Source: Heligmosomoides polygyrus polygyrus
Taxonomy: Eukaryota; Nematoda; Chromadorea; Rhabditida; Heligmosomidae
DNA length: 64,000 nt
Assembly: GCA_947396885.1 (NCBI GenBank)
Contig: OX377204.1
Span: 45,681,139 to 45,745,138 of the forward strand
Direction of reading: 5' to 3'
The translations under genes were made by a program, and so were the position numbers. The notes beneath the pieces were generated by a model. The model was not told the origin of the DNA. It saw only the letters and a list, made by a program, of their open reading frames with translations, and did not search any database. This document shows, one piece after another, positions 25,766 to 64,000 of the stretch. Positions within the stretch are counted from its first letter, which is position 1; every line of letters starts with the position of its first letter.

Positions 25766-28700
25766 CTATGTACATCGATTTGACCAAAGTCACCTGCTTT
25801 CGATGTTGTTGTGTACCAAATGTAGGGGAGTACTTCCTTTGAATACTGATCGCCTCCGTCGCACCAGCAGTACAACTGTCCATCTAGAATTGGGGGACTT
25901 AATGCGGAATTTTGTAGAGTGTATAACTGTTTGGCGACGCATGTTTCTCAGTGGTAACTGGGTCACCTTTCAAACCTCGCTTGCCTTCTCCAGGCTCTGA
26001 AGAAAGCAATTACGCCGAAGCGTCAACTGAATAAAGCGTGGTTACCAATCTTGGCTCCCGCTCGAAGATCCCAATTAGCGTCCAGGACATGCCAAGATTT
26101 AACGGCAGTCGATCATGGAATATGTTTCTCATCAACTGTTGCTGTTTGGATTAGCGTCCACTTGAAACGTTAGCCCTTTCTATAGAGGAACAAGGGTTCT
26201 GCTGGGAGGGGGACGTTCTGCCTGAAAGCGGCGTGCGCAAGGAAGCGAGACAGTGCCTGCGGAGAAATTTAGCGTCGACTCGCGCCGTGACACCCGCCGC
26301 CTCGCACTCAGATAGACAGCCCTCGCCGCGGAGGCGATGGTGACCCATCCAACCAGGGGAGCCTGTAGGTCGACCAGATTTGGTGTGATTACAGTCAATA
26401 GGGGAACAGGAGACTCAGACGGCTTGCAGTGGCAGTCCAGAAATTGAGATTGATCTGAACCAGGCCATCTCCTATATTAGGATTTCGAGCTCTATCGAGT
26501 GAGCCAGAAAAGAGTCTTGCCTCAATAACCCTTACAACATTTTTTTGAGGCGCTGTTTAATAGAATTAGTTACAAATCGATATGCAAAATTATTCAAAAT
26601 CTCACAGCTCTTTAACAGTTTGAAATTCAAAGCCACAACAATCAAATGGAATTAGATAGAATAAGTTGCATAACTGTATCTAAATTTCCTCAACAACATA
26701 AACTCAATATCACAACGATCACAAGCGAAAGACAACAATGAGAACAACGACAACCACACCTTAAACATGCTTTGTTTCGCCTCTACCTTCATACAAAACA
26801 TGTTTAAAATTAGTTACCCCGAGGCTCTTCAGTGAAGAGGGTAACTAATTAACTTGGTTGTTAGTACATTACAAAGTAATACATTAGTGTGCTTTATGTA
26901 CCAACAACCAAGTTTTACAAATGAAAAGACACACAAAACACACAAAAAAACCTTTATTTTAATTTCACTTTTTTGTTTACTTTTTATTTATCTATTATAT
27001 AGATTGTTTTCTATTTCTTTATTTTTTTATTATTTTTTTAATCTTTTAATTTTAAAAATTTTATGTTTATATTTATTTATATACACATTTCTATTTTTTA
27101 TTTATTAAAAATTTAATCTTTGTATTTTTATATAAAACGATATTCTTTAATTGTAAACTCACCACTTCTCGCGAAAGATAGCAATAAAATGAGAATAACG
27201 TTTGAGTTAAAGCATATCACTACCATTATCATTACCAGTCACAATATAATGTTTCACATTCTATTCCTCTCTTATTCTGAGTTATTTTCGCAATTAGTCC
27301 ATAGACTATTCTATAGACTGTTATTATTTCTGTGTTTTATACTTTATATTATAATTAAGCAAATTAGGAATGAAATGTGGAACATCGTAGTGATCGTATT
27401 TATATAATAAATACTTATTTCTATTCAAACATTTCGTTATATTCTTTATAATTATATCTACTGGATAGTCAACTTTAACAAGTCTAGTTATCAACTTAAC
27501 AAGGTTTTCAACAAAATCGTTAAAAGCTGTGCAACATCTAATTAATCTTAGTGTTTCGGTAAATATGATTGATTTTTTAATTTTAATAGATATATTTGAG
27601 TTGAAATGTGGGAATCTAATAACATAAAATTTAAAACTGTCTGTTTTATTGTATAATTTTGTTACTAACTTATTGTTAATAATTTTGATGTTGAGATCAA
27701 GGTAATTGCAGTCGTAGTCTGACTCATGTGTTGTTTCAAGCTGAAGAGAATTTTCGTATGTTTCGCTAAGTAGATTTTGTATATATTCATTATTTTTATT
27801 ATGAATTATAAGAATATCATCCATATATCTAAATGGGTGTATGTTTACGTATCGTTTTTGTGTTACTAATTTTTTGCAAAATTTGTATTCAAATACTGAT
27901 AACGTAAGATCAGCAAGTAAAGGACTACAATTACTTCCCTGTGGTACCCCTTCAATTTGTTTATAAATTATGCCTGCAAAAATTGTAAAGCTATTTTTAA
28001 GTAAATATTCAGTGAAAAACATTAAATCTTCCTCTGTATAATATCTGTATTTATTTATAGTATTATTATTATAATATATATTATTGTGTCCATTATATGC
28101 AAGATATTTTTTACCTGCATTGCGAAAACATATTTTGATTAATTCTTTTATATTTCTCAAAATTATATTGTGAGGAAGACTAGTAAACATATTAGTAAAG
28201 TCTGCTGAAAACAGTTTACAATTTTTGATGTTGATTTTACTTATTTTATCAGATATGTTTATGTTATTAATAGACCAATAACCGATGAAATTTTTATTTC
28301 TAGATGTTATTATATTAATATATTTAATAAAATGTTGCTTTAAGAAAGTAAAAATTATAGTCATTTCTTTTGAAAGAGGTTTTATGGAGCTATTATAAGC
28401 TCCAGTTATAAACCTAAACTTGACTGGATTTTTGTGTAATTTTGGTAAACTATATATCAACGGAACTATTTCTGTTCCTTCAACTTTAATTTTATTATTT
28501 AAACATAATATTTTATGTCTGTTGATAATTTCAAGTTCATTTTCAGAGTTATATATTTCATATGTTTGATTAAATCTTGAAATTTTCAACTCACCATTTT
28601 CTGAAACAATCCCCATCTCTTTGGCTAAAGTGATTAAATAGAATTTCTTACAAATGAAACTGTAATTATTATTTGCTTTATCAAGAGGGCAGATAACAAA

Positions 28701-31700
28701 ATTTTTCTTTAAAAAGTTCAAGTATTCTATATTATGTGTATTTAAATTTCTAAAAGATCTATTGTTTTCTATATTAATTTGATATAGTAAAGATTTCCAG
28801 ATTTTTTTCTTCAAAATATTTAGTTTCTCTTTTATCAAATTAAGGTGGAAGTCTTTTAACTTATATTTATTTTTAATTTTGTCAAGGAATAACGAAAAAA
28901 CTTCTTCAAACCAGTGTTGAATGTTTTCCTTTGAAACATTATGTTTTGGAACAAATTTTTTGCCTTTTTTAATTAAATTTTTGATAATTTTATCTGAAAT
29001 TATTTCTAGGTTACCTGTGATAATATGTTTATGTGTTATATCAATAAACTTTTTATACTTTTCTTCAATACATAAACATTTACTATTAAAGATAGAATTT
29101 AGTTCTGACAAGTTTGTGCTTCTTATTATTGTATTATAATTAAACATTTTCTTGGAAAAAGAAGGTTGTGATTTAAATACACATCTAAAAGGCAACATCC
29201 TTTTATTGGAATTATTTTCTATAATTACACGTATATAGCTATTATTAAACATTTTATTTAAGTTAACTCTATCTAGAACACTATTTATATATGTGACTCC
29301 AACATTAACATAGTATGTTTATGCTCTGATTTTAAACATTTACTTTTACTTTCGTTAAAACAGAATTTACACAACATGCTAACAAGAATTCTATATTTAT
29401 TTTCATCTATATTATTAAAGTGTTCTTTATTACATGTTATTTTTATAACTTTTTTAAGATATTTTTTCTTGAAGGTATTAATGTATCTATACATTTCCAC
29501 TATCGAATTCATTTGATTAAATCTATTAAAAAATTCATCAGGACTGAATGTATCGCATGTGTTATGACTTTCTCGTTTTTTATTCCTTTTGCCGTTTCTT
29601 TTCTTAATTTTTCTAATTTTTAAATTATAGAACGGGTGATTTTCTTTATACATTAAGGGATTATCAATATCAGATATATTTCCATAGCCTTTAATATGAT
29701 CATTGAAACCAAAAGGATGAGCTGTATTAATTAATTTAATCCAGAAAAGTTCTTTTTGTAAAAGAATATCTTTGTCTACATTATCCTCTAAGGAGTCTAA
29801 AATAGTTATATTGATTGAAAGGTTATTGCAATTATTTCCAAAATGCGTATATAAACATTTATTAATTTTTGGGTTTTTAATTTGGGACAGGTGTTCTCTA
29901 ATTCTGTATTTTAATTTTCTAGTTGTAATTCCAATATATTGTTTTTGACAATCGTTACATGCTATGCAATATACAACATTACTTATGTTGCAATTATCAT
30001 TGCTTCTATTATGGGTGTTAATCCTTAAATTTGTGACTGAAGAATGAACATATTCAGTTTTATTGATCATTGTACAAATATTACAATTTTCAGAACAATT
30101 ATTACATTTGTTGTCATTTCCAAAATTATCTAAAATATTAATACCATTAACCTTACTCTTAGCAAAACTATTATTTTTATAGTAATGGTTTTGGTTGTGG
30201 GGGTTACAAGTGTGTGTTCTTTGAGCAGGCCAAAATAATAAAGTGTAGAACAGGCCCAAGCTCTACACTGTTTTGAACTTTGGGGAGGTATTTAGTGGGG
30301 CTGCCTCTGGGTTACCGCAGGTATGTGGTCCATACCACCCTATTGTGTTCCTTCAAATGTAAATAATTATGTTAAATTAATTAGTAATGTTTGTATATAT
30401 TTTTTGAAGGAACGGTTCTTTTGGAAGCACAGGAGTTTTCCCCAGCAAACTCCTGCTTTTATCACTCCATCAAAAGAACCCCTTTTTTATTAGGTAAGAG
30501 GTGTGGTCCTCTTATTCCTTGATTTCAACTGAACGTATGAATTAGAACACACATCAGAATCAAGTTTTTTAATTGAAATTATCGTGAAAGTGAATTTTAA
30601 TATTATTATAACTGATGTTATTTTTCTAAAACGATTTTTCACTTAAAAAATAATTGTTTGCATAATTTTCAACAAATACGAATATTGAAAAAATATTAAA
30701 AATTAATGCTTCTCTTTTTCTTCTCTTTTTTCTTCTCTTTTCTTTCTTTTCTTCTCTTTTCTTTTTTTCTTTTCTTTCTTTTCTTTTTTTGTTCTCTTTT
30801 TCTAAGTTTCGTTAGATAAAGGATAAAGGATAAAGGACGGCGTTACTCAATCCCTTCTGGGATGCGCCAGCGCATTCTACTTCTACGGGATGTCGTGGAG
30901 GCGACATGAATGCGTATTTGGCCATACAATGACTTGCGGTGGCCAGCCGATGAACAAGTCAGCGCTCTATCCTTCCCAGACAAGTCTGGTACCAATTCAC
31001 CGACCCCGGAGGGATGGAAGGCTTGGTTGGCCTGGGCGGGAAATTCAAACCAGGAACCTGGTATCGGGTGCACGCGGCAGCCGCGCCTCCTCCGACTGCG
31101 CTACACGCGCCCCATATGGTTAGATATAAGCTTTTATTTATATCAGAATTAACTAAGAGGCATGCTTCCAGGCTACTGATGTGAACCCTACCATCTCCTT
31201 TATTAGAATTTCGATTTCTATCGAATGAGCTAGAAATTATCCTGCCTAATAACACTTAAGGCGACTTTTTGGGCGTTGTTTGTTTTCGTTAAATATCAGT
31301 TTTCATTTATATCAGAATTAATTGCGAGGCATGCTCCCAGGCTGAAATTGCGCGAGGAATATAAACAGATGGACTAGAAACCTTCTAAGAGCACCCCAAG
31401 TGCTCAACCTTTTGAAAACGACATTATGACCCTTCAATGCATAGAGCATGTTCTCAGTCTGAAATTGCTCGACGAGTTCAGTTTAATAATTGGTAGACCT
31501 CCTGAAAACACCTAACTAGGGAAGGGTTTCGAACTCCCATGAAACTTCAAGTGGAGACCAGGACCATTAGAAAGAGCTCGGAATGCTGATTACGAATATG
31601 CGTGTCAAAATTGCAAAATAAAATTCCTGAACGAGTAGTTGCCTGCCGAAATCGGGGGCCTCACTACAGGCTGGTTGTGCGACTCCGACTCGTGGCGCTG

Positions 31701-34700
31701 GTCATCAGGGCTCCGTAAGAAGGGCCTGCCAGCCGCGGCGGTGGCGCGGATGTAGTGCTCCTGCTCATCAGGTGCCACTCGTAGGTTCGGTTCCCGTTGC
31801 TGCCCGTTTTTTGCAAACCATAATTCATCTTCGAAATGACCTTTTGTTCTGAACTATGACACGTGTCTGAAAAAATAAATAGCCGGGAAAGCTACCATAC
31901 ACGTTTGTAAAAATTCTTGAAGGCAAGAAACTGCTATGGAGACATTTTTATCTATTATTTTCACAAATAGACTTTAAATCATATATTGAATAACTAGAGA
32001 TGTTTCTAACAACCTTGGCATTCATGGAACAAAGCAAAACATGATAAGGAAGAACTAGATGTCGTTGATCTACTGCTTTTTCTTCACTCACTATGTCTTT
32101 TTCACCAGCAAAGGTGGTGTCCATTCTTTTCGCTGGATTTGGGGTGCCAGAGTAAATAAAAATGTCACCATAGCAGTTTTTTGCCTTCAAGCATTTTTAC
32201 AAACGTGTATAGTAGTTTTCCCCGCTATTTAATCGGACACGTGTCATAATTCAGAGCGAGAGGTATTTTCGAAGATGAATTATGATTTGCGAAAACTGGT
32301 GAGGCCCCCGATTTCGGTAGGCTACAACTCGCTCAGGAGTTTCATTTTGCAATTTCGACACCCATATTCGTAAGCAGCATACCGAGCTCGTTCTAGTGAT
32401 CCTGGTCTCAACTAGAAGTTCCATGGGAGGTCGAAATGCTTCCCTAGTAAGTACTCTGGTTTTCTCAACCGTTTCATGACTGTCTCCTAACTCGTTAATT
32501 GGTGGGGTGACATTGGCTATGGGACGCGATATCAAATTACTGTTAGAAGCCGCAAACGACTGGGCGAGCAATATGAAGTATTGTGTGATGCAATTTATTT
32601 TCGGTGAACATTAGATTTGACGAAGCACCTATGCAGTCTTAGTCTCGGTATACATATATGGTGTGTGCATTATAAAGTTCCATAGAAAAATCAGTTACGA
32701 AATGCTAAAGAGATGTCATATTGAAACGAACGCTTTAAACTTCTGTTAGAAGTTCTCCCGCCTATCTAGTTGGATTCCTCGTGCAATTTTAGCCTGGAAG
32801 CATGTCTCGCGTTTAATCCTGATATATGTGGACAGAAACCGATATTTAGCGAAAAATAGCGCCTGAAAAAACTCGCTTCAAGGGTTAGTGAGGCAGGATT
32901 TTTTCTGGATCATTCGATAGAGCTCAAAATTCTAGTACAGGAAATGGTAGGGTTCACATCTGTAGTATGGAAGCATGCCTCGCAATTAATTCTGATATAA
33001 GTTAACACTGATATTTAATGAAAATTAACAACGCCTAAAAGCCGCTATAAGGGTTATTTAGGCAGGATAATTTTTGGCTCATTCGGTAGGGATCGAAATT
33101 CTAATATAGAAAATGGTAGAGTTCAAATCAGTAGCCTGGAAGCATGCCTCGTAGTTAATTCTGATATAAATAAAAACTGATATTTAACTAAAGTTAAACA
33201 GCGCCTGAAAAAATCGTTTTAACTGTTATTGAGGCAAGATTTTTTCTTGGCTCATTCGATGGAGCTCGAAATTCTAATATAGAAGATGGTAGGGTTCAGA
33301 TCAATTCCAATTCCTGGCTGCCAATGCAAGCCGTCTGAGCCTCCTATCCCTCTATCGACTGTAACCACACCAAATCTGGTCGAACTCCCCTGGTTGGAGG
33401 GTCACCATCGCCTCCGCGGCGAGGGCTGTCTGGCTGAGTGCGAAGCGGCAGGTGTCACGGTGTGAGTCGACGCTAATTGGCTCCACAGGCACTGTCCCGC
33501 GTCTCTGCCCGCGCCGCTTTCAGGCAGAACGTCCCTCACCCCGTCCTGCTAAATATTCCTGCCGAATAGCTTCCTTCAAAACTGCCTAAATTGTTTTATG
33601 CTCGGGACGGCAGTGTCCCCGTCCATAGGCGAAATCCTCTTTTTAATGGTAGTCCTGCTGAGTTAATTTTCCTGTCATACACTGGAGCTCTATAATAGAT
33701 GTCCCAGCGTCCTATTTTATCTAAATCGCATCGAGAAACTCAAATATCTTGAGACCAGGGATGTGCGGAATTTCCGTTTCCGCGTTCCGAATTCCGGTTT
33801 CCGGCCATTTTAGGCTCTTCCGTTCCGTTCCGTGTTCCGCCTGTTTTTAGGCCGGAAGGCGGAAACGGAAATGGGCTCTGTTCCACACTGTTTTCTACTG
33901 AACACAGTCAGCTTATCAATCAAAAAGAGTTCTCCTTCAATTGTGAGAGAAATACTGTTTGATAACTCCAGTATTAATAATCTTAAAATTGGCTAGGCTA
34001 CCAAAAAAACACAACGCTGGGTGCAGGGCAAAATTAGTGTGCCACAAAGGCTATGCACGCATTATATGCAAAGAAGCCCCATTTGCCGACCTCTGTGGAC
34101 TTGACCCGGGAGGGCGCCAGCCGGACTTTGTAAGCATATCGCGCAGTATCATAAGACAAAGGGTTCAGTGAAGGTTGTGCCATGCGGTTGTCTTCCAAGA
34201 TTAGATCAGTGTTCCTGATCAGTGGTGCAAATTTCAATTTTTAATTTTGTTAGGTGTGATACTCATCCATAGGGAGTTATGCGATTCATTGTTTAATCAG
34301 GCATCACGAATATTTAGTATGAGCTGTTATTTTGATTGACTATGGTGACTATTGAATTCTGACACAAAACAATTGCTTCGAGAGCCACCTTGGAACTGTT
34401 CAGCTGTGTCACCTTGAGCGTAGGGTTTCTAGGCTGGCACAGACTGAATATTCCTGTGGAAGTGTGGACCCACCATGACTAGTCAGTCATCCAATTATCA
34501 TCTTAGATCCCAGAATGAATTCTGGGTGCTGGTGTTGGTGATTACAATGTAACTGCTAATCTTGAGCATGTAGAGATATCTGTGCAGTCACCACGTCGTC
34601 CTAGGCGCCACAGGTTTCTAAAAATGTTGAGAGGAAAATTTTCCTGGTCGGAAAATGATCTAGGTGAAGTAACCTCAAGTGGTTAAGTCGGTTAGGTCTA

Positions 34701-37700: not shown

Positions 37701-40700
37701 AATAGCATAGGGCCCCAGGTGTTAGGTTTTTGGACGACGTCGCGCCACTTAACGAATCCGCAAACTGCGGCGCGGTTTTCGCGCACCACATCTCGTCCAA
37801 ATAGGGCGGCGCGGGCAGGGAAGTGGGCAGCAGGTAGGATCGTGTAGGGAGCGCACGCCCCCCGAACGCAGGCGTTACGTCAAAATGACCAACAAAATTG
37901 AATCTTGCTCCATTAGGGCGGACGTTATTGAGCTGCCACTTAGCTCAGTTTTCAAGTAAGTGGCACCAGCAGTTGCGAACGTTGACAGCCATTTTCTTGA
38001 ACCTAACCCATGCTTGAGTGCAGCGTGGTTCAAACGACGCTCTATTATGGACAAGAGTGTACCAGAACGGCTTAAGTCGAAGACCTACGAAGTAGTCTTC
38101 CGACAGGTAGCTATTTACGGTGCTGAGTTCTGGCCGGTGAGTGAAGAAGTGGAAGAAAAAACGGAACCGAAGCTGTCACCTCGAGGAGTCTAGAATATGA
38201 CCTCGAGGGCGACTTATGTTGTTGTGGCTTGGTCGCTGCATCTGGACCTTAAGTTTGCTGAGATACACTATTATCAGGCATCCATTCGGGAGAAGTGGCG
38301 CCAACTATCAGGAATGCGGGCTCTGCTCTAAGGACGGAAACGCTGAAGAAGCAGAAGAAGAAGAGTTATAAAGAAATGAGGATTTTCATTTTTGCCAACA
38401 TCGTTTTTAGAATACCTTTAGATGATTATTTGAGCAGCCGATATTCACAGTCACATCACTGTTCTCCGTAACAATATCGTGAACACAGGACGTCAAAGAG
38501 GGTTTCAATTCTAGGCATCTCATGAGTGCTTCAAATAAGGAAGGATCACACTTCGGTTAAAGTGTGATCTGGATGCGGCTCGGAAACAACAAAATCTTCA
38601 CACACTTTGCGAATCCTCAACGATTTCGGTTCACACGTTGAACTAAAGTAGAATGATTCAAAGTTGCGATTCCTAACTGCCCGAAAAGCAGTAATGTGAC
38701 AGGGAACCACCTACGAGTAGGAATTTGTAGAAACATCCCCATCATGGAAATCTCAGATTATTCGTGTGTTTAGCAATCAGAAGTACTACAGTTGCTATTC
38801 AGCTCATCACACCGTTTCATGTTTGAGATCAGCCTAGTGCAGTCAAAAAATTCAAGAAACGATGTGACGAGTTGTACTTCGTAGCTTCTCTGAGAACAGT
38901 GAATCAATGATGCCTTCGCTTACGACTTAAGGATTCCATGTTTCTCGTGCACCAAACTGGAGAGTTGGTTATCAGAACAAATTGGGTGGAACTCACATGT
39001 AGAAGATTAGTGGAGGGATGATGGCAATCACATGATATGTGAGGAACATTGTCGACTGCCCTCCGTGGAGGTAGAGTGGGAAGTCCTCGGCCATCATGCC
39101 GTATGTAGAGGGCTCGTAGTAGAATGTCACGTACCATGGTTGGAAATGCGTAGCCAGTACCTAAAAAGAGTGCTGAAAGAGCTTGAGAGGCATCAGTACT
39201 GCAACTCCACTCTTTCCGTAAATCTTATAGTGTCCCATTATTAACATAATGTTCCCTCCCAATACCTAGCACAGCCTTAATCTGAAAATGAAATGAAACG
39301 AAATGAATCTGATTGCTCAGAGATAGGAGCAATTTGTCAAATCGAGTGTTTGAGCTGTGACGCAAAATATTATACGGTGGGGAAACGGGAAGAGCTCTGG
39401 CGGTTCGCCTAAAAGAACATTTAGCCAGCAAAAGACGCAATCCAGCCCATTTGGCAGACATAGAATTGATGTGCATGCCGTGGACGACTACGAGGTGAAA
39501 TGTACAATATTGGCCATCGAGAGTGATATCTCAGCACGAAAAGCATTGGAAGCATTCTGGATTTTTACGAGGAATCCAGTAATGAACAACAGAAATGAGT
39601 GTTTAGCCTTAACAAGTGATTTCTTGTCGTTTGTTAACTGTAGAATGATCAGAGAGCAATATTCGCAGTGTGGTCCATTCGCCTCTATTAGGGGGGGGGG
39701 GCAAAAGTAATGAGACAAAATGAAAAAAGAATCTTTATCTCTCTATAACTCAATTACAACTCAACGATGCTGAGGATTGTATTTGCCATTAAGGGCAAGG
39801 ACCTTGCTGCCATCGCTCAGCCAACTTCCTGATCCCATCCTTCCAGAACTGCTTGAGCCTGGTGTTGATCAACAGCTCGATATGGTTGTCAAGGACTGCT
39901 TGGATTCTTGTGTCCCTTCCCACCAGGAAGTCCTGTAGGCTCAAGTAGTAGTGGTAGTTGCATGGACAGATGTCCAGCGAATACGGTGGGTGAGGCATGT
40001 GAACGTAGCCCAGCTGGCCGAGCTTATCCGTGCTTACTTGTTCCTGATGGGGTGCGGCGTTGTCGAAGAGGAGAACCTTCTTGAAGCGCTGCGAATGAAT
40101 AAGAGCGAGTCGCCGGCCCATCTCTTCTATTTCGTTCACCATGGCCTTGGAGTTCATCGCGGTGCTCTTGGGAAACAGCCTCCGGTAAACCGAACCATGG
40201 GCGCAGACCCAAAAGCTCCAAAGATGCTTCTCGCCGTGAACATCTCGCCGAACGAAGGTCGGTAACAATTCACCAGGCCTCACCCAGACTCGCTGCTTGG
40301 CAGGGTTAAGGTAGAAGACGTACTTCTCATCTTGCGTGAATATTGAGCCCAGGCTGCTCGGGGTTGGGAATTGGGGGAGATTTGCGCGACACAGGTCGAG
40401 TTGTCAGACTGGGGTTTCGGCATGAGACAGGCTGGGGTTTTTGGCATGCTTCTGGAAAGGGCGGAAGTGGTAACTTTTCAGATGCGCTTCATTAAGTAGC
40501 ATACAAACATAGAAATACGATAAGCACGAAACCAGACTCCAGCCACGAGATATATGGACACGGCATGGGGTGTCTCATTACTTTTGGCCCCCCCCCCCTA
40601 ATACTGGTCACAGGGCGAACATATGCCCTCAACGGTGTACATTGGTGAGTTCGTCCTCTCATTTGGTCTCTTCGGGTGCTTGTAGAAGTAGGTCGAAAAT

Positions 40701-43700: not shown

Positions 43701-46700
43701 ACTAGCAAAAACGGCCATTTCATATACAACGATCTAATAAAAAGTAGAAGTGCGCTAATAATAAATACCACGTAATTAGAGTCAATTTATTTCACAACAG
43801 TTCCAAGATTGCTAATCTGTACCCGTCGATAAAGAGTACGTATGATGGTGCCTCTGAATCTGATCCTCGGACTTCCACACGACATAACATTGAATGAGGA
43901 AATTGTTATCTGAATTTTCTCGTGAACCTCAAAACTGCATTGAAGGCACATCCATGGAAGATAAAGAACATGCCTAGTAGTATGAGATGATGACGGCTGC
44001 GTGCTAATTCGTTGGCCTCAGCCTAATTTGTAATTCCGATAGCTTGTGAGAAAAATTAGGCGTGATGTCATCACAGAAAATGAATAAAATTTGAACGCCA
44101 CGCAGCGCTTTCGTTAATTATCACAATACCCCCTTGCAAAGGGAATGGCAAGAATAATTAGGCAGCAGGCGTAGAAATTCCGAGATCTGATGAGGTCGAC
44201 TTTTTCGCGAACTCACTTCAGTGTGAGCACGGGACAGCGACCATGAAGATAAAGAGTGCATCAATTAGACAGGAATTAGGGGAGTCGTCTCAATGGCCGT
44301 TCACGAGACGTACGAGACGCGTCAGCGCAATGCTCAATGCAGAAACTATCTCGTTTCCACACTGAAGTAATTACATGCTCGCGATCGCTGTGCTCGTACG
44401 TAGTGGGGGCCACGGACTGTACATCACGAGAAAACGCTAGAGTAACGCGAGCTGTCTGAGCCAGATAGGCGAAGCAAAGCTCACGTCTCCGCAGTTCGAG
44501 GGTGAAGCCAGCCCGATGCGAAACCTCGAAACAGATTTTCCATACGTACTGATCGCAGTTTCCTATTTTCCTATCTTATTCTGCTTCTGTTACTATGAGT
44601 CTTCGCAAATGGCGTGTAAATGTAGGTGGGTATCCTGTTTGGAACAATCAGTGATAGTCGCATATGTATAAGTCACCCTTCATCTCTCTGATTACTAGAA
44701 GTTCTGCTTTCCTCTAGGAAAGCATTGAAATGACACGTCCTTCTACACTGGGTCGCACCGATAGTTCGATACTGGAGCTTCGACCGGGAAGTCGATTATA
44801 TGATTCTTCATATGAAATAAATTATTAATAAACCAGCCGTCAGAGCGGCCTGCCTCTCGGCCGCACTGACGGCTTCTTAACGGTTAAGTCGTAGTAATAA
44901 CTTATCATCAATTGTAGCTGCCACCTATGTCATGGTTTCCGCAGGAAGCTACAAGCTGTGGCAGAAGACGAGGGTACCCGAGCATCTCACAGCCTACAGG
45001 AAGCTGAAGAGGCTGGCAAAAACAGCTGTAGCGAAGGCAAAAAACGCGGAAATGGATGCCCTGTACGAAGAAACTAGACGGGCCAGAGGGAGAGAGGTTT
45101 GCCATCCGCCTGGCCAAGGCGCGTCATAGAGCTAGCCTCGACATCGAGTAGTGAAGACTGTGAAGAGTGTTGACGATAGGGTGTTACGGAAGCCGGTCGA
45201 GGTCAGAGAAAGATAGGAAGAGTACTTCAAGGAACTCTTGAACGAGGAATTCCCCCGTCGGGAGGCCCAGGAAGAACAACCAACGGAAGGACCCATTCCG
45301 CCCTGGACGCAAGAAGAGGTTCGCAAGGCCATAGGGAAGACGAAGCTCGGAAAGGAAGCAGGGCCTGACGGTGTGCCAGTAGAGGCTTGGAAGGTGCTCG
45401 AGGACCTTGGAATCAACTGGCTGAAGCAGTTCCTCAACAGAATCACGAAAAAAGGTAAGATGCCGGATCACTGGAGGAACAGCACCATAGTCCCCGTATT
45501 CAAGCAGAAGGGAGACGCTTCCGAATGCTCCAACTACCAAGGGATCAAACTGATCTCACACACGATGAAGACCTACGAACGACTGGCAGACTCAAGGCTA
45601 AGGGAGATGGTACCCATCTCCCAGGTGCAGTGGGGCTTCATGCTTGAGAGGACCACCACAGACGCCATCATCATCGCTCGTCAGGTGGTGGAGAAATATC
45701 GGGAAAAACGAAAACCCTGCTACCTGGCATTCCTGGACCTGGAGAAGGCCTACGACAGGTTAGCTCGGACTGTAATCTGGAATGCCCTTCGAGGGGGGGG
45801 GGTGTCCCGGAACGTCTGATCACGGTCATAAGGGACATGTACGAGGGATCGAAAACGGCGATGCGAACTCCACACGAGGGGACAAGGAAAGTGGACATCA
45901 CAGTGGGGGTACACCAAGGGTCGGCTCTGAGCCCGTTCCTCTTCCTGCTGACACTTGACTCTATAGTGAACCACCTTGAGGAAGGCCCTCTCAGAACGAT
46001 CCTCTACGCGGACGACATCACCCTAGTAGCCGACAACCAGGAGGAGCTGGAGGAGAAGGTGCAGCTGGGGCAGAGAGCCCTCGCAGACAACGGCCTACGG
46101 CTGAACGTAAAGAAGACGAAGTTCATCAGCTCTGAGTAGTGCGCTGGATCGATCCTAGACTGCCAAGGGGAGGTCATCGAAAAGGTGGAACAATTCCGCT
46201 ACCTCGGAAGCGATCTATCCGAGAAAGGAAGCGTGGACCAGGAGGTTTAGGGACGGATAAGTGCAGCATGGCTCAAATGGAGGGAGTGCTCAGGAATCCT
46301 CTGCGACCGTAGGTGCTCCAGGATACTCAAAGGCCAGCTATATAGAACAGCAGTGAGGCAGACCCTCCTCTACGGCTGTGAGTGCTGGGCCCTGGGAAAG
46401 GCGCAGGAGCGGCAACTGCACGCGGCGGAGATGAGGATGCTGAGGTGGGCATGTGGATGGACCCGTCGGGACAGGGTGCGAAACGAGGATGTTAGGGCGG
46501 TGATGAAGACAGCCCTGATCCAGCTGAAGATGAGAAAGCAGCGCCTGAGGTGGTATGGACACGTCCTCAGAAGACCAGAGGATCACCCCACAAGGTTGAC
46601 CCTAGATTTCGAGGCACCCGGAAAGCGTCCGAGAGGAGCGCCAAGGAAAAGATGGAAGGACGTCATCAAGAGAGACCTCGCCGAAGTCGGCGCCGCGGCA

Positions 46701-49700
46701 GATGACGCCCTTGATAGGATGAGGTGGCGACAGATCACAAGAACAGCGGACCCTGCGACTGCGCGGGAATAAACGCTCAGGTGGAGGAGAAGAAGAAGTT
46801 TAAAAAATAAGCTCCTGCCTAGGAGGCTTTGGAGGCTGGGCTCCTCCGTTTCCGGTACTTAGCTAGCACTGTTCAGCTTAAGCTTAAAATAACGCAACAG
46901 TTAAATGAATATTGAATCACATCTGATTAACATTAGCAGAAAAAGCTTCAGGAAATTTAGCTGTACTGCACTACAGATCAGGTGACCCTTACGATTTACG
47001 GTTTACGATTTACGGCGGTTTTTTCGTAACTACGATTTACGATTTACGAAATTTCGATTTTCATTTACGCACACCCCTGGTCCTAACGCAACTTGCCTCT
47101 GACGCGACGCGTGGCAGCGGAAAACTGCTCTCCGGCGCCCTTTTGAGTCGCTCTTCATCTTTCGCGCCACTTGTCCTGGTTGAACGAAGCGGCACAGTCG
47201 GTACTGGAGGAGGTTGGCCCGTTCTTCCCCCTAGCATGCGGAGGGGTGATGCTAATTGCGCGAGGAGCGCCCATCGAGGACCAGTTGTCCTAGTGCGCAA
47301 GAACAAGGGTCGAGGTGATCGGCTCATCTGTTTTGCTATTGAACACCGTGGTTGAGTGGGAAGTTATGGGCACGACATATTAATTTCGTCTGGACTTAGA
47401 AAAATGCCATAGCTCCACATAAAAGGCGATGGGTTCAAGATGAAAAGATGATCATGAAAAATATCATAACTTGATAAAGTTTAAACAAACAAAGGGAGAC
47501 AACTTTCAATCTTAGTATTTGTGGCCTGAGTACTCCCTTGAAGGCATTGTACCATCTTGCTTATCAGGAAGGGTACTTGTAGCTAGAAGCACAGGTACAC
47601 CTCCATGAAGTAACAAGTGATTACAAAGCAGACGTCAAAAATGGGAGAAGCAGAAAGAATGCAGCGCAGAATGGCCTCCTGTCGATCCCACGATGATAAC
47701 AGCTGATGGCTGGGGAGGAGGCCCGTTCTTCCCCCCCCCCCCCCCCCAGCCACCCGAGCGCCTGAATTCGCCCGCAATGGGTGGGCACTCTTCGCGCAAT
47801 TACCACCGCCCCGCTGCGTGCTGGGGGAAGAACACTACCCCGCCAGTACTGTAGTATGCAGGAAGTAAAACAAGTTTTGGAAAAAGAGGAGTACGGAGCT
47901 TGGAGGAGCTCAAAGTAGCAATCGTCCAGTATTGCAAGACTCTAACACCAGAGGTACAAAACACAGAAATAATGAGGAGGAAGATAGAGCAGATTGTGGA
48001 GCAGGGGGGCCGTAATATTGTTGGAGGGAGGAAGCATTATTAATCGGTGATAACCGTTACTTTAGTTGCACCACACATCGAGTGTTAATGGTTACATGTC
48101 TTCTATAAATTTCTTGTACTATTTGTGTATTGTACGATGTGTTTTTGATTTGTGTAGACCTGTTATTCTTGCTTTGTACAGTAATGTCTAGAATCTATGT
48201 CTACATTAAAAAATCCCTATACAGATAACAATGGATAAATTTAGAAAAAACGATATTGGAATAACAAGGAACACAAGCTGCTCTGTAAGCGAGAGTGTTG
48301 CGAATAAATTCAAAGGATTATCCTCACCTTCTTCAAATTCCATTAAGGTGCGGAAGGTTTCTGTTCATTCGATCTGAGCAAGGGCACCACTATAGAGATG
48401 GCCGCGGATCCTATTATACGATCATAGATGTCTTGTCACGAATGATATTTAGACCCACATTCTCCCTTTCTGAGATGCAGGCCTATCTGCATTCAAGAGC
48501 AGCAGTACCGCAAGCAACCTCGTCAGGCTTGCTGGGCAACTACATAGTGCCTGCTCCCTACCGAATATTACAAAGGGCGAACATTGAGTCTTCTCTTCTC
48601 TGCTGTGGCCTATATCGCATCCTTTGGAGTGAAATGCAATGTTTAATGCAGAGAAAGCAAAGCTGATTTCCGGGCCGTTGACTTCTTCCGCATGGTCCAA
48701 TCATGGCCAATTCACATTATTGAGGTCTTGACATTTTAAAAGTTACTCTTGGACAGCGGTGAAGATGAGATTGCCCCTAACCGATCCTGAGAGTTTAAAA
48801 CTTCTGATGTGCTGCTCAGCAAGCAGAAATAAATTTCTGCTTTCGAATGCCATCTTGAAGCAATGCTCGGCGACAAAACTGGTTCTATCTAGAATGAATA
48901 GGTACAACAAATTTCACGAACTAACAATACTCAAAATCGCAATAGAACTGGACTCAACCTTAGAGACTACTTTCCTCAAGCAACCCGAATAAAACTTGTT
49001 TTCTGATAATTGAAGATTTTTTGTGGGAACTATCAGTCTGTGATTTGAATCCGTAGGTAACCTCAATTGCCGTCCTTACCTTAAATTCCCGGCTTGTGCA
49101 CGTTTCAGCATTGAGGGCACTTATGAGGCACAGGGGGGGGGGGGTGCCCGCACAAAGAGTCCTGGGACATGTCCACCTATAACACTTGAGTCAAAGTTGA
49201 CCACATCCTGCAGTTCTTTCCCTTTCCCAGTCCGTCATATCCCAACCAAGAGCCTTCGTTTTTCGTGCTCGGGTCCTCTGCCCTATATGCATCGCATAGA
49301 GTATCACTTCTGACGTTTATGTCCCTTATGATGTTCTACCACAATGCTTAACAAAAATCCTAGAGAAAAACAAAATCTTCAATAAGCTGTTCCTACAACA
49401 ACCTAAAGCTTAACGAATGCTGTGTCGGTTTCGCTCGCAAATGGAAGTGCTTCAAACAAGCCAAGAACTTGGAAATTATTCCCATGCATTCGAGGGCCTG
49501 AAGGATGCTGCTAGCCGTGTGAAAATTAGAGGGAAACTCACTATGAAACTGCCTTGTTGGAACAATGGAGAAGACAGTATTTCCGGAAGAAGAGATAAAG
49601 CTAATCGTACGTTTTCTGCGATGTCCATCATTGAGTCACTGCTTCTCTCAAACCATGCAACTATGCTTGAAAGCACAATTGGAAGACGTGCTATGAGGAA

Positions 49701-55985: not shown

Positions 55986-58696
55986 ACTAGCAAACATTCG
56001 ATCAGTTGTAAGAAATTGTAATGTGCTGTTTATGGAACTACGGCTTCATTATTACGGAGTTGTTCTACTAACTGAAACATGGCTTACTAGTGAAAATGAG
56101 CTGAGACCTCTTCTGGGTATCGTCAGCAACCATTATTTGGGAATTAGATGTGATCGACTCTCTAAAAAGGCAGTGGTATATTACATTTGGTGAAAAATTC
56201 ACTATGGTACACTGATGTGTTCAGTGAGTCAGTGGCAAATAGTTATGAAATTTCAGTTTGCGATTTGATGCATGAGAATATAACGTTTCGGGTTATCTGC
56301 GTATATAGAACACCTAACTGTGGTGTCATAGGAGCACGCCTACTAGCCAAAGCTATAAGCGACTTTTCTGCGAACAGTCTAACAACGGTTTTATTGGGTG
56401 ATTTTAATATTCAACCAGTATGCAATTTCTCACAAGAGCAAACTCTGTTTTGGACCTTGTTCTCTGTAACAAATCAAACTTTGTTAGAGAAGTGCATGTT
56501 GCCCCTCCTATTGGCACAAGTGATCATGCCACAGTTACGTTCCATTTAGGCTTCAAACCTAAGAACAAGGAATCCAAATGGGTGAAGGATTTCAAATGCG
56601 CTGACTATCAACATATTGAGGCGTATCTAGCCAGCATGATTGGATCGGTGTAATGAATTCTAGTAGCTCGGCTGATCAATTATATGAAACGTTGCTTGCA
56701 ATCCTTCACCATACAATCGATCTGTATGTGCCCATACGTATAAACAATGAAGATGAAAAAGGGTATCCAACCTATATCATAAGATTGAACAAACGTCGTT
56801 CTTACGCCTGGAAGAAGGCTCGTGCCTCCGGTAGTAGTCGTAACTGGTCACTGTGTGAGTCGTTTTCCACCAAACTTAGTCGAGCCGTTTATCGTTACAA
56901 TCTTTATATAGAAAGAAAAATGATATAAACAGGGATAAAACAGCCTTCTATCATTTTATAAGATCACGTATAGGGAATAGCAATGATATCCCCAGCTTGT
57001 TGAAAGACAGTGGTGAACTGGCTTCGACAGAGAAAGAAAAAGCGGATTTATTAGGGGAAGTATTTCAAAAGGTCTTCAACAAGAGAAATACTTGCTCAGA
57101 TAGCATGACATGCAATGATAGAGATGATCTTCCGCATATCCGAGAACGAGCAGTACCTTGTGGTTTCATAAGGACGAAATCATCGACAATCTATCTAAAT
57201 GGCCATCGTCTTCCTCAGTTTCTCCGGACTTTATCCCTCTTAGTTTTATTTAAAAAATCATCTATTATATAGCTTACTCTTTGGAACATATATATAACCT
57301 AAGTGATACTAGAGCTGAGGTGCCTGCTAGATGGAAACATGCATTCGTAACTCCCATTTACAAAAAAGCTCTGCGGTCTGATCCCAGAAATTACAGGCCA
57401 GTCAGCATACCATCAATATTTGCGCGAATCTTTGAGAAGATACTCAAGAAACATATATTAATGCATCTTAAAGATCACAATATAATTTCAGAAAATCAAT
57501 ACGGCTTGCTCAAAGGAAGATCAGTCGAAACTGCCCTTCTTACCTCTCTTAATGACTGGACAAAGGCGCTAGAAGAGAGAAAGCGTACGGACGTTATATA
57601 TTTTGATTTCGCAAAAGGGTCTTTGATCTTTCGATAGGGTCTTGGTGAACAATCTGTTGGTTAAAATGGGAGCGGTAGGAATCCACCCTATGATTATATG
57701 TTGGGTAATGCAATTTTTATCGGGCAGAACATAGCAAGTTGGCATAAAAGGTCAGTTTTCGAAAGTGTTTTCCACGTATAGCGGAGTTCCTCAGGGAGAG
57801 GTGTTATCGCCAATCTTATTTTTATTGTACACCTACGAACTTCCGAACCATCTTACCAATCTGGGTGTCATCTGTAAAATGTTCGCAATGATGTGAAGGT
57901 TTACAAAAAAATTGTAGATACTTCTGATAAACTATCCCTTCAGTCTGCGATAAATTACATCTCCAATTGGGCAGACAAGTGGGGTCTGCCACTTGCACAT
58001 GAAAAAACATGCTTTCTAACAATTGGATCTAAAAGACAGTCACAGTTCCCAACATACAGTAATAATGGTCAGGTTCTAAGCAATGTAAAAGAAGCCCGCG
58101 ATCTGGGATTCATCATAACGTCCAATCTATGCTTTTCACAGCACTACAGACTTCTCGATAAAAAGGCCGGCTACCGTATATATAACTGCTTTCGAGCTCT
58201 AAAGTCAGATCAACCAGAAATTTATATCCGAGCTTATAAAACATATATGAGGCCAATTGTTAAATCGGGAATAACGGTGTTCAATCCAACTAAGAAGAAA
58301 GATATCGAGCTTTTGGAAAGTGTTCAAAATAGCTTCACTAGAAAACTTATGATGAGATGCTTTTCAATGAACTACGATCAGATTCCACATGCTTCTCAGA
58401 GATCAGTCATACTTAGCCTATCGTCGCTCAAGAATAGAAGAAAAGCAGCAGATCGTGTCACGATGTTCAAGATCATTAGCAACAAGTTATCCATTAACCC
58501 AACCGATTTCTTTGATGGCGCTCTGACGAGATCCGTAAGAGGAAAGCTTAAGCTTCGAGTTTCAGTTGCCAAAACTCGAGTCAGATCTGATTTTCTAACG
58601 TACAGAACACTTGGAGATTTCATTCTACTGCTAGATAAATACGAAGACATGACAAGATTATCTGTACAGGTCTGCAAAAGGTTTTCCACAGCTTAA
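55975..58696 (+). pseudogene. CR1-type polyprotein, endonuclease and reverse transcriptase, broken
   Basis: APE-type endonuclease blocks: NIRSVVRNCNVLFMELRLHY, VVLLTETWLTSE, CVYRTPN, VLLGDFNI and SDHATVTFHL. RT blocks: VPARWKHAFVTPIYKKALRS, NYRPVSIPSIFARIFEKIL, NQYGLLKGRSVETALLTSL, VIYFDFAK (first catalytic Asp), then a frameshift; YSGVPQGEVLSPILFLLYTY; and the FADD box, disrupted (MFAMM) near 57880-57895. The last 267 codons (57893-58696) stay open and carry the CR1 C-terminal region, including LSSLKNRRKAADRV. At least four frameshifts or stops. Not functional. Confidence 0.82.
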
Positions 58697-61054: not shown

Positions 61055-61800
61055 CGCACGGTTGCCGACGTGTTCGGCACGTCTACGGCTCGCCATGCAC
61101 AGTTGCCGACGTGTTCTGCACGTCTATGGCTCGCCATGCACGGTCGCCGACGTGTTCGGCACGTCTGCGGCTCGCCATGCACGGTCGCCGACGTGTTCGG
61201 CACGTCTGCGGCTCGCCATGCACGGTCGCCGACGTGTTCGGCACGTCTGCGGCTCGCTATGCACGGTCGCCGACGTGTTCGGCACGTCTGCGGCTCGCCA
61301 TGCACGGTCGCCGACGTGTTCGGCACGTCTGCAGCTCGCCATGCACGGTCGATGACGTGTTCGGCACATCTACGGCTCGCCATGCACAGTTGCCGACGTG
61401 TTCGGCACGTCTACGGCTCGCATGCACGGTCGATGACGTGTTCGGCACGTCCGCGGCTCGCCATGCACGGTCGCCGACGAGTTCGGCACGTCTGCGGCTC
61501 GCCATGCACGGTCGCCGACGTGTTCGGCACGTCTACGGCTCGCCATGCACGGTTGCCGACGTGTTCGGCACGTCTGCGGCTCGCCATGCACGGTCGCCGA
61601 CGTGTTCGGCACGTCTGCGGCTCGCCATGCACGGTCGCCGACGTGTTCGGCACGTCTGCAGCTCGCCATGCACGGTCGATGACGTGTTCGGCACGTCTAC
61701 GGCTCGCCATGCACAGTTGCCGACGTGTTCGGCACGTCTACGGCTCGCATGCACGGTCGATGACGTGTTCGGCACGTCTGCGGCTCGCCATGGACGGTTG
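61055..61800 (+). repeat. 41-bp satellite, block 1 (about 18 units)
   Basis: Unit CACGGTTGCCGACGTGTTCG-GCACGTCTACGGCTCGCCATG, 41 bases. It contains the perfect dyad GACGTG-ttcgg-CACGTC. Variant pairs (ggTCGcc/ctGcgg and ggTTGcc/ctAcgg) alternate. A marker unit group (CTGCAGCTCGCC at 61331 and 61658, followed by GGTCGATGACG and a 40-base unit lacking one C) recurs at 327 bases, 8 x 41 minus 1, indicating higher-order structure. Confidence 0.95.
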
Positions 61801-61841
61801 CAGACGTGCCGATCACGTCGGCAACCGTCCATGGCGAGCCG
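61781..61841. repeat. Inversion junction within the satellite
   Basis: CGGCTCGCCATGGACGGTTGC (61781-61801) is exactly inverted at 61821-61841, around a 19-base spacer. About one unit is therefore in reverse orientation just before the 108-bp block resumes. Confidence 0.92.
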
Positions 61842-61852
61842 TAGACGTGCCT

Positions 61853-62184
61853 TTTCGCGCCACTTCAGCGGCATCCTCAAAAAATCGATAATATCGATCG
61901 ATATCCATTGGCCGACTTCAGATTCGTGTTCAGCGACCTCGATTACCCACAGGGCCGAGGTTTCCTGCCGGTTGAACGTGATCCTCAAAAAATCGATAAT
62001 ATCGATCGATATCGATTGGTCGACTTCAGATTCGTGTTCAGCGACCTCGACTACCCCCAGGGCCGAAGTTTCGTGCCGGTTGAACATGATCCTCAAAAAA
62101 TCGATAATATCGATCGGTATCGATTGGTCGACTTCAGATTCGTGTTTAGCGACCTCGATTACCCCCCGGCCTGAAGTTTTGTAC
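61853..62184 (+). repeat. 108-bp tandem repeat, block 2
   Basis: CCTCAAAAAATCGATAATAT at 61875, 61983 and 62091, 108 apart; same unit and orientation as 60700-61052. Confidence 0.92.
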
Positions 62185-64000
62185 CGCCGACGTGTTCGGC
62201 ACGTCTACGGCTCGCCATGGACGGTTGCCGACGTGTTCGGCACGTCTACGGCTCGCCATGCACGGTTGCCGACGTGATCGGCACGTCTGCGGCTCGCCAT
62301 GCACGGTCGCCGACGTGTTCGGCACGTCTGCGGCTCGCCATGCACGGTCGCCGACGTGTTCGGCACGTCTACGGCTCGCCATGCACGGTCGCCGACGTGC
62401 TCGGCACGTCTACGGCTCGCCATGCACGGTTGCCGACGTGTTCGGCACGTCTACGGCTCGCCATGCACGGTTGCCGACGTGATCGGCACGTCTGCGGCTC
62501 GCCATGCACGGTTGCCGACGTGTTCGGCACGTCTACGGCTCGCCATGCACAGTTGCCGACGTGTTCGGCACGTCTGCGGCTCGCGATGCACGGTCGCCGA
62601 CGTGCTCGGCACGTTTACGGCTCGCCATGCACGGTCGCCGACGTGTTCGGCACGTCTGCGGCTCGCCATGCACGGTCGCCGACGTGTTCGGCACGTCTAC
62701 GGCTCGCCATGCACGGTTGCCGACGTGTTCGGCACGTCTACGGCTCGCCATGCACGGTTGCCGACGTGTTCGGCACGTCTGCGGCTCGCCATGCACGGTC
62801 GCCGACGTGTTCGGCACGTCTACGGCTCGCCATGCACGGTTGCCGACGTGTTCGGCACGTGTACGGCTCGCCATGCACGGTTGCCGACGTGTTCGGCACG
62901 TCTACGGCTCGCCATGCACGGTTGCCGACGTGTTCGGCACGTCTACGGCTCGCCATGCACGGTTGCCGACGTGTTCGGCACGTCTACGGCTCGCCATGCA
63001 CAGTTGCCGACGTGTTCGGCACGTCTGCGGCTCGCCATGCACGGTCGCCGACGTGTTCGGCACGTCTACGGCTCGCCATGCACGGTTGCCGACGTGTTCG
63101 GCACGTCTGCGGCTCGCCATGCACGGTCGCCGACGTGTTCGGCACGTCTACGGCTCGCCATGCACAGTTGCCGACGTGTTCGGCACGTCTACGGCTCGCA
63201 TGCACGGTCGATGACGTGTTCGGCACGTCTGCGGCTCGCCATGGACGGTTGCCTACGTGTTCGGCACGTCTACGGCTCGCCATGCACGGATGCCGACATG
63301 ATCGGCACGTCTGCGGCTCGCCATGCACGGTTGCCGACGTGTTCGGCACGTCTGCGGCTCGCCATGCACGGTCGCCGACGTGTTCGGCACGTCTGCGGCT
63401 CGCCATGCACGGTTGCCGACGTGTTCGGCACGTCTACGGCTCGCCATGCACGGTTGCCGACGTGTTCGGCACGTCTACGGCTCGCCATGCACGGTTGCCG
63501 ACGTGTTCGGCACGTCTACGGCTCGCCATGCACAGTTGCCGACGTGTTCGGCACGTCTGCGGCTCGCCATGCACGGTCGCCGACGTGTTCGGCACGTCTA
63601 CGGCTCGCCATGCACGGTTGCCGACGTGTTCGGCACGTCTACGGCTCGCATGCACGGTCGATGACGTGTTCGGTACGTCTGCGGCTCGCCATGCACGGTC
63701 GCCGACGAGTTCGGCACGTCTACGGCTCGCCATGCACGGTTGCCGACGTGTTCGGCACGTCTACGGCTCGCCATGCACGGTTGCCGACGTGTTCGGCACG
63801 TCTACGGCTCGCCATGCACAGTTGCCGACGTGTTCGGCACGTCTACGGCTCGCCATGCACGGTTGCCGACGTGTTCGGCACGTCTGCGGCTCGCCATGCA
63901 CGGTCGCCGACGTGTTCGGCACGTCTGCGGCTCGCCATGCACGGTCGCCGACGTGTTCGGCACGTCTGCAGCTCGCCATGCACGGTCGATGACGTGTTCG
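62185..64000 (+). repeat. 41-bp satellite, block 2 (about 44 units, runs off the window)
   Basis: Same unit and orientation as block 1. The 40-base variant (GGCTCGCATGCACGGTCGATG) appears at about 63197 and 63649, and the CTGCAGCTCGCC marker again at 63967. Because 41 is not a multiple of 3 and the unit has no stop in most frames, ORFs up to 591 aa cross the array. These are repeat artefacts. Confidence 0.95.

Follow-up and report, generated by a model that had tools for sequence, protein, structure and literature searches.

A Naiad-kind Penelope-like retrotransposon family with a predicted type-CSG hammerhead motif in its 3′ untranslated region and a putative pseudoknot at an AUG-less frame start

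Canonical Penelope elements encode a reverse transcriptase (RT) followed by a GIY-YIG endonuclease. The endonuclease-first order is known from the Naiad and Chlamys elements; Naiads combine an N-terminal endonuclease, a CxC motif and an insertion in the fingers domain of the RT, while the CCHH motif of the endonuclease is not known from Chlamys. Both are said, in the 2021 work of Craig et al., to have no canonical hammerhead motif. Here we describe a window of 64,000 nucleotides (nt), G000:C52:45681139-45745138 of a 656-Mb assembly, whose positions 26559-30720 on the minus strand very probably hold one copy, 5′-truncated and broken in frame, of a Naiad-kind Penelope-like retrotransposon that has several families in its strongylid-like nematode host and carries a putative type-CSG hammerhead in its 3′ untranslated region (3′UTR). 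Like Naiad and Chlamys elements, this family places the endonuclease before the RT in one frame and has a CxC linker, extra residues inserted between motifs A and B of the RT, and a tandem arrangement. Unlike Naiads as known so far, it carries a permuted hammerhead motif and a pseudoknot at an AUG-less start.

The hammerhead order CSG, a non-circular permutation described by Eckert et al., is known from two sequences, neither of them from a known genome; it was shown to cleave, CSG-1 and CSG-2 each releasing a 3′ fragment of 29 nt (PMC10085705). Minimal type-I hammerheads are known from canonical Penelope elements, and their role has been called unknown (PMC7761336). The present family resembles canonical Penelope/Poseidon and Nematis-like elements in its telomerase-like RT, GIY-YIG endonuclease, tandem units and RNA of the hammerhead class, whereas the hammerheads of the canonical elements follow the type-I order and have a very short stem III or none (PMC7761336; PMC11167929). 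The canonical elements differ further in that the RT precedes the endonuclease, the RT mostly reads DKG rather than DKA as found here, and the A-B insertion is missing.

When the 3′ ends of families A (to which the window copy belongs) and B were compared, they were found to share CTGANGAG ... GGCGAAAC, with differing stems around these common letters. In the window, the whole motif spans 26763-26850 on the minus strand and contains the CUGANGA core (26826-26832), a GUA cleavage triplet (26792-26794) and the GAAA core (26775-26778), with cleavage predicted from the position in the core to fall between 26792 and 26791. The corresponding motifs lie at 4515-4616 in L034 (family B) and at about 5120-5236 in L036 (family C). 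The C block is made of the 3′ strand of stem I, CUGANGA and the 5′ strand of stem II; the S block of the 3′ strand of stem III, GUH and the 5′ strand of stem I; and the G block of the 3′ strand of stem II, GAAA and the 5′ strand of stem III. Since all core nucleotides, three stems and a helix joining stems I and II (P0) are present, we read the motif with high confidence as a putative type-CSG (non-circularly permuted) hammerhead. In its C-S-G order, core nucleotides and joining helix it is like the published type, and its predicted 3′ fragment, counted from the cleavage site as far as stem III reaches, has the published length of 29 nt (PMC10085705). It is unlike the two published, hostless sequences in that its letters match at about a thousand places in a single animal genome, within a known class of retroelement. 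Among the matches listed in a literature search for permuted hammerheads in Penelope-like or other retroelements, PMC10085705 was the sole report of a non-circular permutation; most subscription papers and the Naiad paper lay outside that search.

A strict scan, defined by at least 4 bp in each of stems I, II and III together with NUH, CUGANGA and GAAA, recovered the CSG order in 26 of the 30 best copies (L001-L030). Counting all Naiad or adjoining loci, many of which are without a 3′UTR and one of which (L065) is of open element class, the order was found in 38 of 67, and none of the other five block orders occurred in these same 67 loci. Twelve further stretches downstream of RT or endonuclease matches were fetched by position (L061-L063, L065-L072 and L074); seven contained the strict motif, two the core with one mismatch in stem I, and three were without the motif. 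The motif is distributed over element families A-E, although not in every copy. No CSG motif was detected in 40 Mb of random sequence generated with the same dinucleotide content, nor in 80 viral loci (1.39 Mb) preselected for the core letters. The same viral control gave one locus for the order SCG and two for GSC, so chance hits do occur in a scan of this kind. Across the genome, CTGANGAGCC-N(32-60)-GGCGAAAC occurs at 1,220 places and its reversed form at 3; when the S block is added to the pattern, the counts are 1,019 and 6. Such counts test the letters and not the stems, and about the first 100 places were listed one by one. The roughly 1,000-1,200 letter matches far outnumber the RT-bearing copies, of which there are at least 68. 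Copies truncated at the 5′ end probably explain most of this excess, and non-autonomous ribozyme elements could also be among it. Seven canonical loci had no hammerhead of any block order in the scan, which would miss a minimal type-I motif with fewer than 4 bp in stem III.

Pairing was examined in 14 chosen representatives aligned outward from the core. The core letters CUGANGA, GAAA and NUH are kept in all 14, and changes on both sides of a pair occur at five of six positions in stem I, five of six in stem II and eight of ten in stem III; position 6 of stem II is paired in only 4 of the 14. P0 and a slid-column check are independent of the stem-based scan. Helix P0 measures 9-19 bp in 14/14 representatives and usually abuts both stems (it is 7 nt away in L068); in 13 of them, 0-9 of 1000 shuffles did as well. 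When nine rows were aligned, 98.1% of the cells were paired, compared with 42-53% when the partners are slid by 1-3 columns, and both the covariation score and the number of cells changed on both sides were reached by 0 of 500 shuffles.

Relatives of the element were also found in a genome collection, on four contigs of metagenome-assembled genomes (MAGs; L057-L060), which are presumably eukaryotic contamination; the contigs of L058 and L059 are filed under Flavobacteriaceae MAGs. In L058 the motif lies 1.05 kb beyond the frame, and in L059 about 310 nt past the apparent C-terminal end of the RT (judged by eye) and 2.06 kb ahead of the next frame. The stems of both motifs are unrelated to the nematode stems, and the two loci stand on different branches of a 20-row clade (96/99) that includes the nematode families. 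The first 780 bp of L058 are repeated at its end at 93%, and the two ends of L059 share an overlap of 119 identical bases, as would be expected of units that repeat or are circular. Viral contigs were not a source of more relatives, as 0 of 76 candidate stretches encode one.

The element as a whole (26559-30720, minus strand) was delimited by its common 3′ end, the limits of homology and longer copies. Its 3′ end is placed at about 26559 because copies of the family stop at the same point and are followed by unrelated flanks. Homology to other copies stops at 30722/30710, and the end near 30720 represents a truncation, because the upstream stretches of L004 and L030 (loci L032 and L033) share about 450 bp more. 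A frame with a cysteine cluster and the GIY-YIG domain (29285-30262, minus strand; PF01541, E 2.1e-6; catalytic landmarks conserved) is followed by one with the CxC linker and the telomerase-like RT (27324-29318, minus strand; PF00078, E 8.4e-10; structure model). The two overlap out of phase at 29318-29285, which confirms a single frameshift. This frame break is private to the window copy, since L003 and L007 (981 codons each), L010 (1004) and L013 (982), as well as family B (L034 and L035, 972 codons) and family C (L036, 952 codons), read through both domains in a single open frame. A programmed frameshift between the domains was considered and rejected, as the intact copies have one frame.

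The endonuclease precedes the RT in the true order of the element. All 21 multi-domain rows of a 23-row alignment show the endonuclease, then the CxC motif and then the RT (row P0002 starts inside the endonuclease). In L003 numbering, C397-x-C399 of the CxC motif is nearly invariant in this alignment, as are Y98, Y109, G111, R120, H124, E171 and N187 and the cysteines C60, C91, C102 and C105; H140 is likewise nearly invariant, and C91, C102, C105, H124 and H140 are the residues considered for a possible CCHH motif. D373 and D500/D501 of the RT (664-residue frame) are invariant in a 36-row alignment. A preliminary description of the window, made from its letters, had already recognized GIY-YIG before RT on the minus strand, the catalytic aspartates, the GIY-YIG landmarks and a lone frameshift, all of which stand. 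The C-x2-C-x3-C-x2-C cluster that it pointed out is indeed present in the window frame, but of its residues only C60 is widely kept. As to its question of novelty, the domain order is of a known kind, and what is new, and had been overlooked, is the permuted hammerhead motif in the 3′UTR and the pseudoknot at the AUG-less start.

In an RT-only tree of 40 rows, 28 rows with an N-terminal endonuclease, including the window RT, split from 12 C-terminal rows at 100/100. L042, L051 and P0113, in which motif B was not recognized, were left out of this tree, and an earlier tree of 41 rows had included the endonuclease columns. No endonuclease match of their own was found in four cut or shorter rows, namely the window RT frame, P0014 and P0015 among the 28 and P0118 among the 12. 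RT motifs A and B lie 78-86 residues apart in the nematode elements and in their closer relatives; the distance is 57-67 in six remoter N-terminal-endonuclease rows and 56-60 in canonical rows (8 of 13, those with both motifs found). The structure model of the RT (pLDDT 90.4) retrieved telomerases as all of its 17 best Foldseek matches in the PDB, with low TM-scores of 0.33-0.46 by query; the endonuclease model was weaker (pLDDT 71). The insertion in the fingers domain is read from the spacing of 78-86 against 56-60 and the telomerase-like model. RT phylogeny, the CxC linker and the A-B insertion place the element with the N-terminal-endonuclease Penelope-like elements, apart from the canonical ones of the same genome. 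It is assigned to the Naiad kind by matching its N-terminal endonuclease, CxC motif and fingers insertion to the known description of that group, the N-terminal-endonuclease clade being defined here by domain order only.

A search of the same genome with the RT frame gave at least 68 matches, and 65 of the 68 among the matches listed lie on six contigs of 97-112 Mb. Within the youngest subfamily, copies are about 94-99% identical to the window copy in DNA, and many other copies are decayed. Copies of family A end after the motif CTAATTCTATT, followed by unrelated flanks; 17 of 19 other tabulated copies end at this point within a few bases (L024 stops earlier, and the locus of L026 is cut). Their 5′ ends are scattered along the element. 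This combination of fixed 3′ and scattered 5′ ends is the trace that target-primed reverse transcription with frequent 5′ truncation would be expected to leave. In family B, a head-to-tail array has units that are 99.9% identical at a spacing of 4329 bp (L034). No direct repeat between 5′ and 3′ parts, as expected of pseudo-long terminal repeats (pLTRs), was found in family A copies. On these grounds we propose that the element RNA, often transcribed from head-to-tail copies, would be translated into an endonuclease-CxC-RT protein, which would nick DNA and prime reverse transcription near the 3′ end of the element, which would account for 3′ ends that are fixed and 5′ ends that are raggedly truncated. 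Between tandem units, the ribozyme would cut the RNA and so yield unit-length RNAs. The nicking and priming steps, the activity of the ribozyme and its part in processing units are all inferred, and the cutting of tandem transcripts into unit lengths appears to be the likeliest use of the ribozyme.

Several observations weigh against this reading. Among the best 30 copies, L009 and L018 fail the strict scan through a mismatch in stem II, and in L017 and L024 the region is absent; elsewhere, L063 and L069 have a stem I mismatch, and L057, L060, L062, L065 and L072 are without the motif (L062 represents family F, and its stretch holds mariner-like frames, recognized by eye). Taken alone, the 14-row table overstates the pairing because its rows were selected by their stems. 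In the nine-row alignment most pairs of stems I and II never vary, the number of pairs with changes on both sides (4) was reached by 226 of 500 shuffles and that of further pair types by 339 of 500, and the covariation of stem I depends on family C, L058 and L059. L059 is the weakest representative, with a stem III of 3 bp, a bulge and 6 bp and a P0 matched by 70 of 1000 shuffles. In inserted copies the motif is retained uncut, together with a further stretch of about 67 nt in family B (L035) or 233 nt in family A; the templates of insertion were therefore uncut at that site, and no scored place begins at the predicted cleavage site. The uncut templates agree with the result for Anolis Penelope, whose hammerhead cuts only with the protein present and whose ribozyme mutants still insert in vitro (PMC11167929). 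It could be argued that this is an ordinary Naiad in which the 3′UTR motif is some other conserved structure resembling a permuted hammerhead, such as one bound by the protein of the element. The dispensability of the Anolis ribozyme for insertion would fit such a structure, and so would the Rfam searches, in which no hammerhead was reported in nine loci at E up to 1 or in nine loci at E up to 5. However, the 14 representatives all keep the hammerhead core letters, with compensatory change in every stem; each of them has the helix that joins stems I and II; and the CSG type is known to cleave (PMC10085705). We therefore regard the alternative structure as quite improbable and retain the type-CSG hammerhead.

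The preliminary description had also allowed that the window RT might group inside a canonical RT-GIY-YIG clade, or that the domain order might be an artefact in which the 3′ end of one canonical copy lies beside the 5′ part of another. Tandem arrays of canonical elements do exist in this genome: at L064 (G000:C13:35963000-35967300), a canonical RT-before-endonuclease Penelope element forms an array of units of about 3031 bp, the distance that also separates its GIY-YIG matches. The window RT, however, falls on the N-terminal-endonuclease side of the 100/100 branch and the canonical family on the other, single open frames with both domains are present in families A, B and C, and independent metagenomic elements share the order, so that a tandem junction has virtually no chance of being the explanation. 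The L064-type protein has as its five best matches proteins named Haemonchus contortus or Ancylostoma ceylanicum, with 59-65% identity over 97% of its length, which supports a strongylid-like nematode host; the preliminary description had suspected a nematode-like genome. That description had further suggested a recent, possibly horizontal acquisition from the AT richness of the element in a mid-GC locus. The contrast itself is real (25.3% G+C within 26559-30720 and 46.2% in the remainder of the window), but AT richness is a trait of the whole element family. A lineage recently transferred into, and new to, nematodes would accord with the close similarity of the youngest copies and with the lack of any named nematode protein among the matches listed (36 at E 1e-5; 25 at E 1e-20), where the canonical element has many named strongylid matches. 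This lack, seen with the element's own genome as the nematode DNA searched, is the only sign of patchiness. The protein identity of only 42-45% among families A, B and C, together with the many decayed copies, speaks for a long stay, and recent horizontal acquisition seems unlikely.

At its other end, the element has a 5′ leader with inverted repeats (30227-30513, minus strand) that can be aligned among families A-E and, in its 3′ part, with L059. The corresponding leaders are 30513-30224 (minus strand) in the window, 885-1125 in L034, 1445-1690 in L036, 1010-1250 in L042 and 2480-2720 in L059. Within 30226-30269 (minus strand), a hairpin at 30269-30242 has a loop that can pair with 30231-30226, giving a putative pseudoknot of the PKI kind for which 0 of 60 shuffles were as good. 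The first codon, GCT at 30226-30224 (minus strand), follows this pseudoknot directly, and no AUG is present. The first conserved codon is GCT in family A and GCA in families B and C. Family A has an in-frame TAG upstream (30263-30265), and its open frame reaches a first methionine at residue 65; in family B the first methionine comes at residue 266, past the endonuclease domain. The pseudoknot was found in 7 of 11 leaders (A, A2 represented by L013, B, C, D, F and L059). It ranks second among the solutions in D and first in the other six, for which 0-1 of 60 shuffles did as well. It is weak in E (12 of 60) and in L058 (5 of 60, and away from the frame start), and among the same 11 leaders it was not seen in L010, where the 5′ end is replaced, or in L057.

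The obvious hypothesis is that the AUG-less frame starts from a pseudoknot like that of the intergenic-region (IGR) internal ribosome entry site (IRES). As in the PKI of dicistrovirus IGR IRESs, the loop would pair with bases just ahead of a non-AUG first codon (GCN in A, B and C). Unlike these viral elements, the structure sits in a retrotransposon and has no Rfam match in nine loci. It is also possible that an AUG is supplied by splicing from an upstream exon, although inspection by eye of the frame start in families A, B and D showed no acceptor-like site. No retrotransposon RNA of the IGR-IRES kind appeared in the titles and abstract beginnings among the papers listed in a literature search.

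Elsewhere in the window, a dispersed repeat (GAGGC..CTCACTCGATAGAGCTCGAAAT.. and kin, recognized by eye) flanks the element on both sides at 26500-26540 and 31000-31250, occurs again at 32860-33303, and is partly tandem with a unit of 169 bp. A frame resembling a mariner transposase (39792-40403, minus strand) and two frames resembling non-LTR (non-long-terminal-repeat) reverse transcriptases (45217-46769 and 56166-58693, plus strand) were likewise identified by eye. A 41-bp tandem repeat of about 71 copies and 63-67% G+C occupies 61056-64000 and runs past the end of the window. No tRNA or Rfam genes were detected in the window at default thresholds.

Taken further, these observations lead to a tentative proposal, to which we give somewhat less than even credence: that all Naiad-kind elements carry a CSG hammerhead in place of the type-I form, that this form originated from a tandem type-I pair, and that translation starts at the IGR-IRES-like pseudoknot. 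Starting from the pair C-G-S C-G-S, loss of the first G block and the second C block would leave C-S-G. If true, such an origin would answer how a non-circular permutation evolves, and the retrotransposon would be a cellular source or relative of factor-free IRESs; a functional AUG-less start behind the PKI-like pseudoknot would amount to factor-free initiation outside viruses. The CSG hammerhead itself would gain a natural home, with covariation data, a biological setting and testable material. The finding may also explain why permuted Penelope-like elements were said to lack canonical hammerheads, and it suggests that elements across the Penelope-like group have retained the ribozyme, whatever its connectivity.

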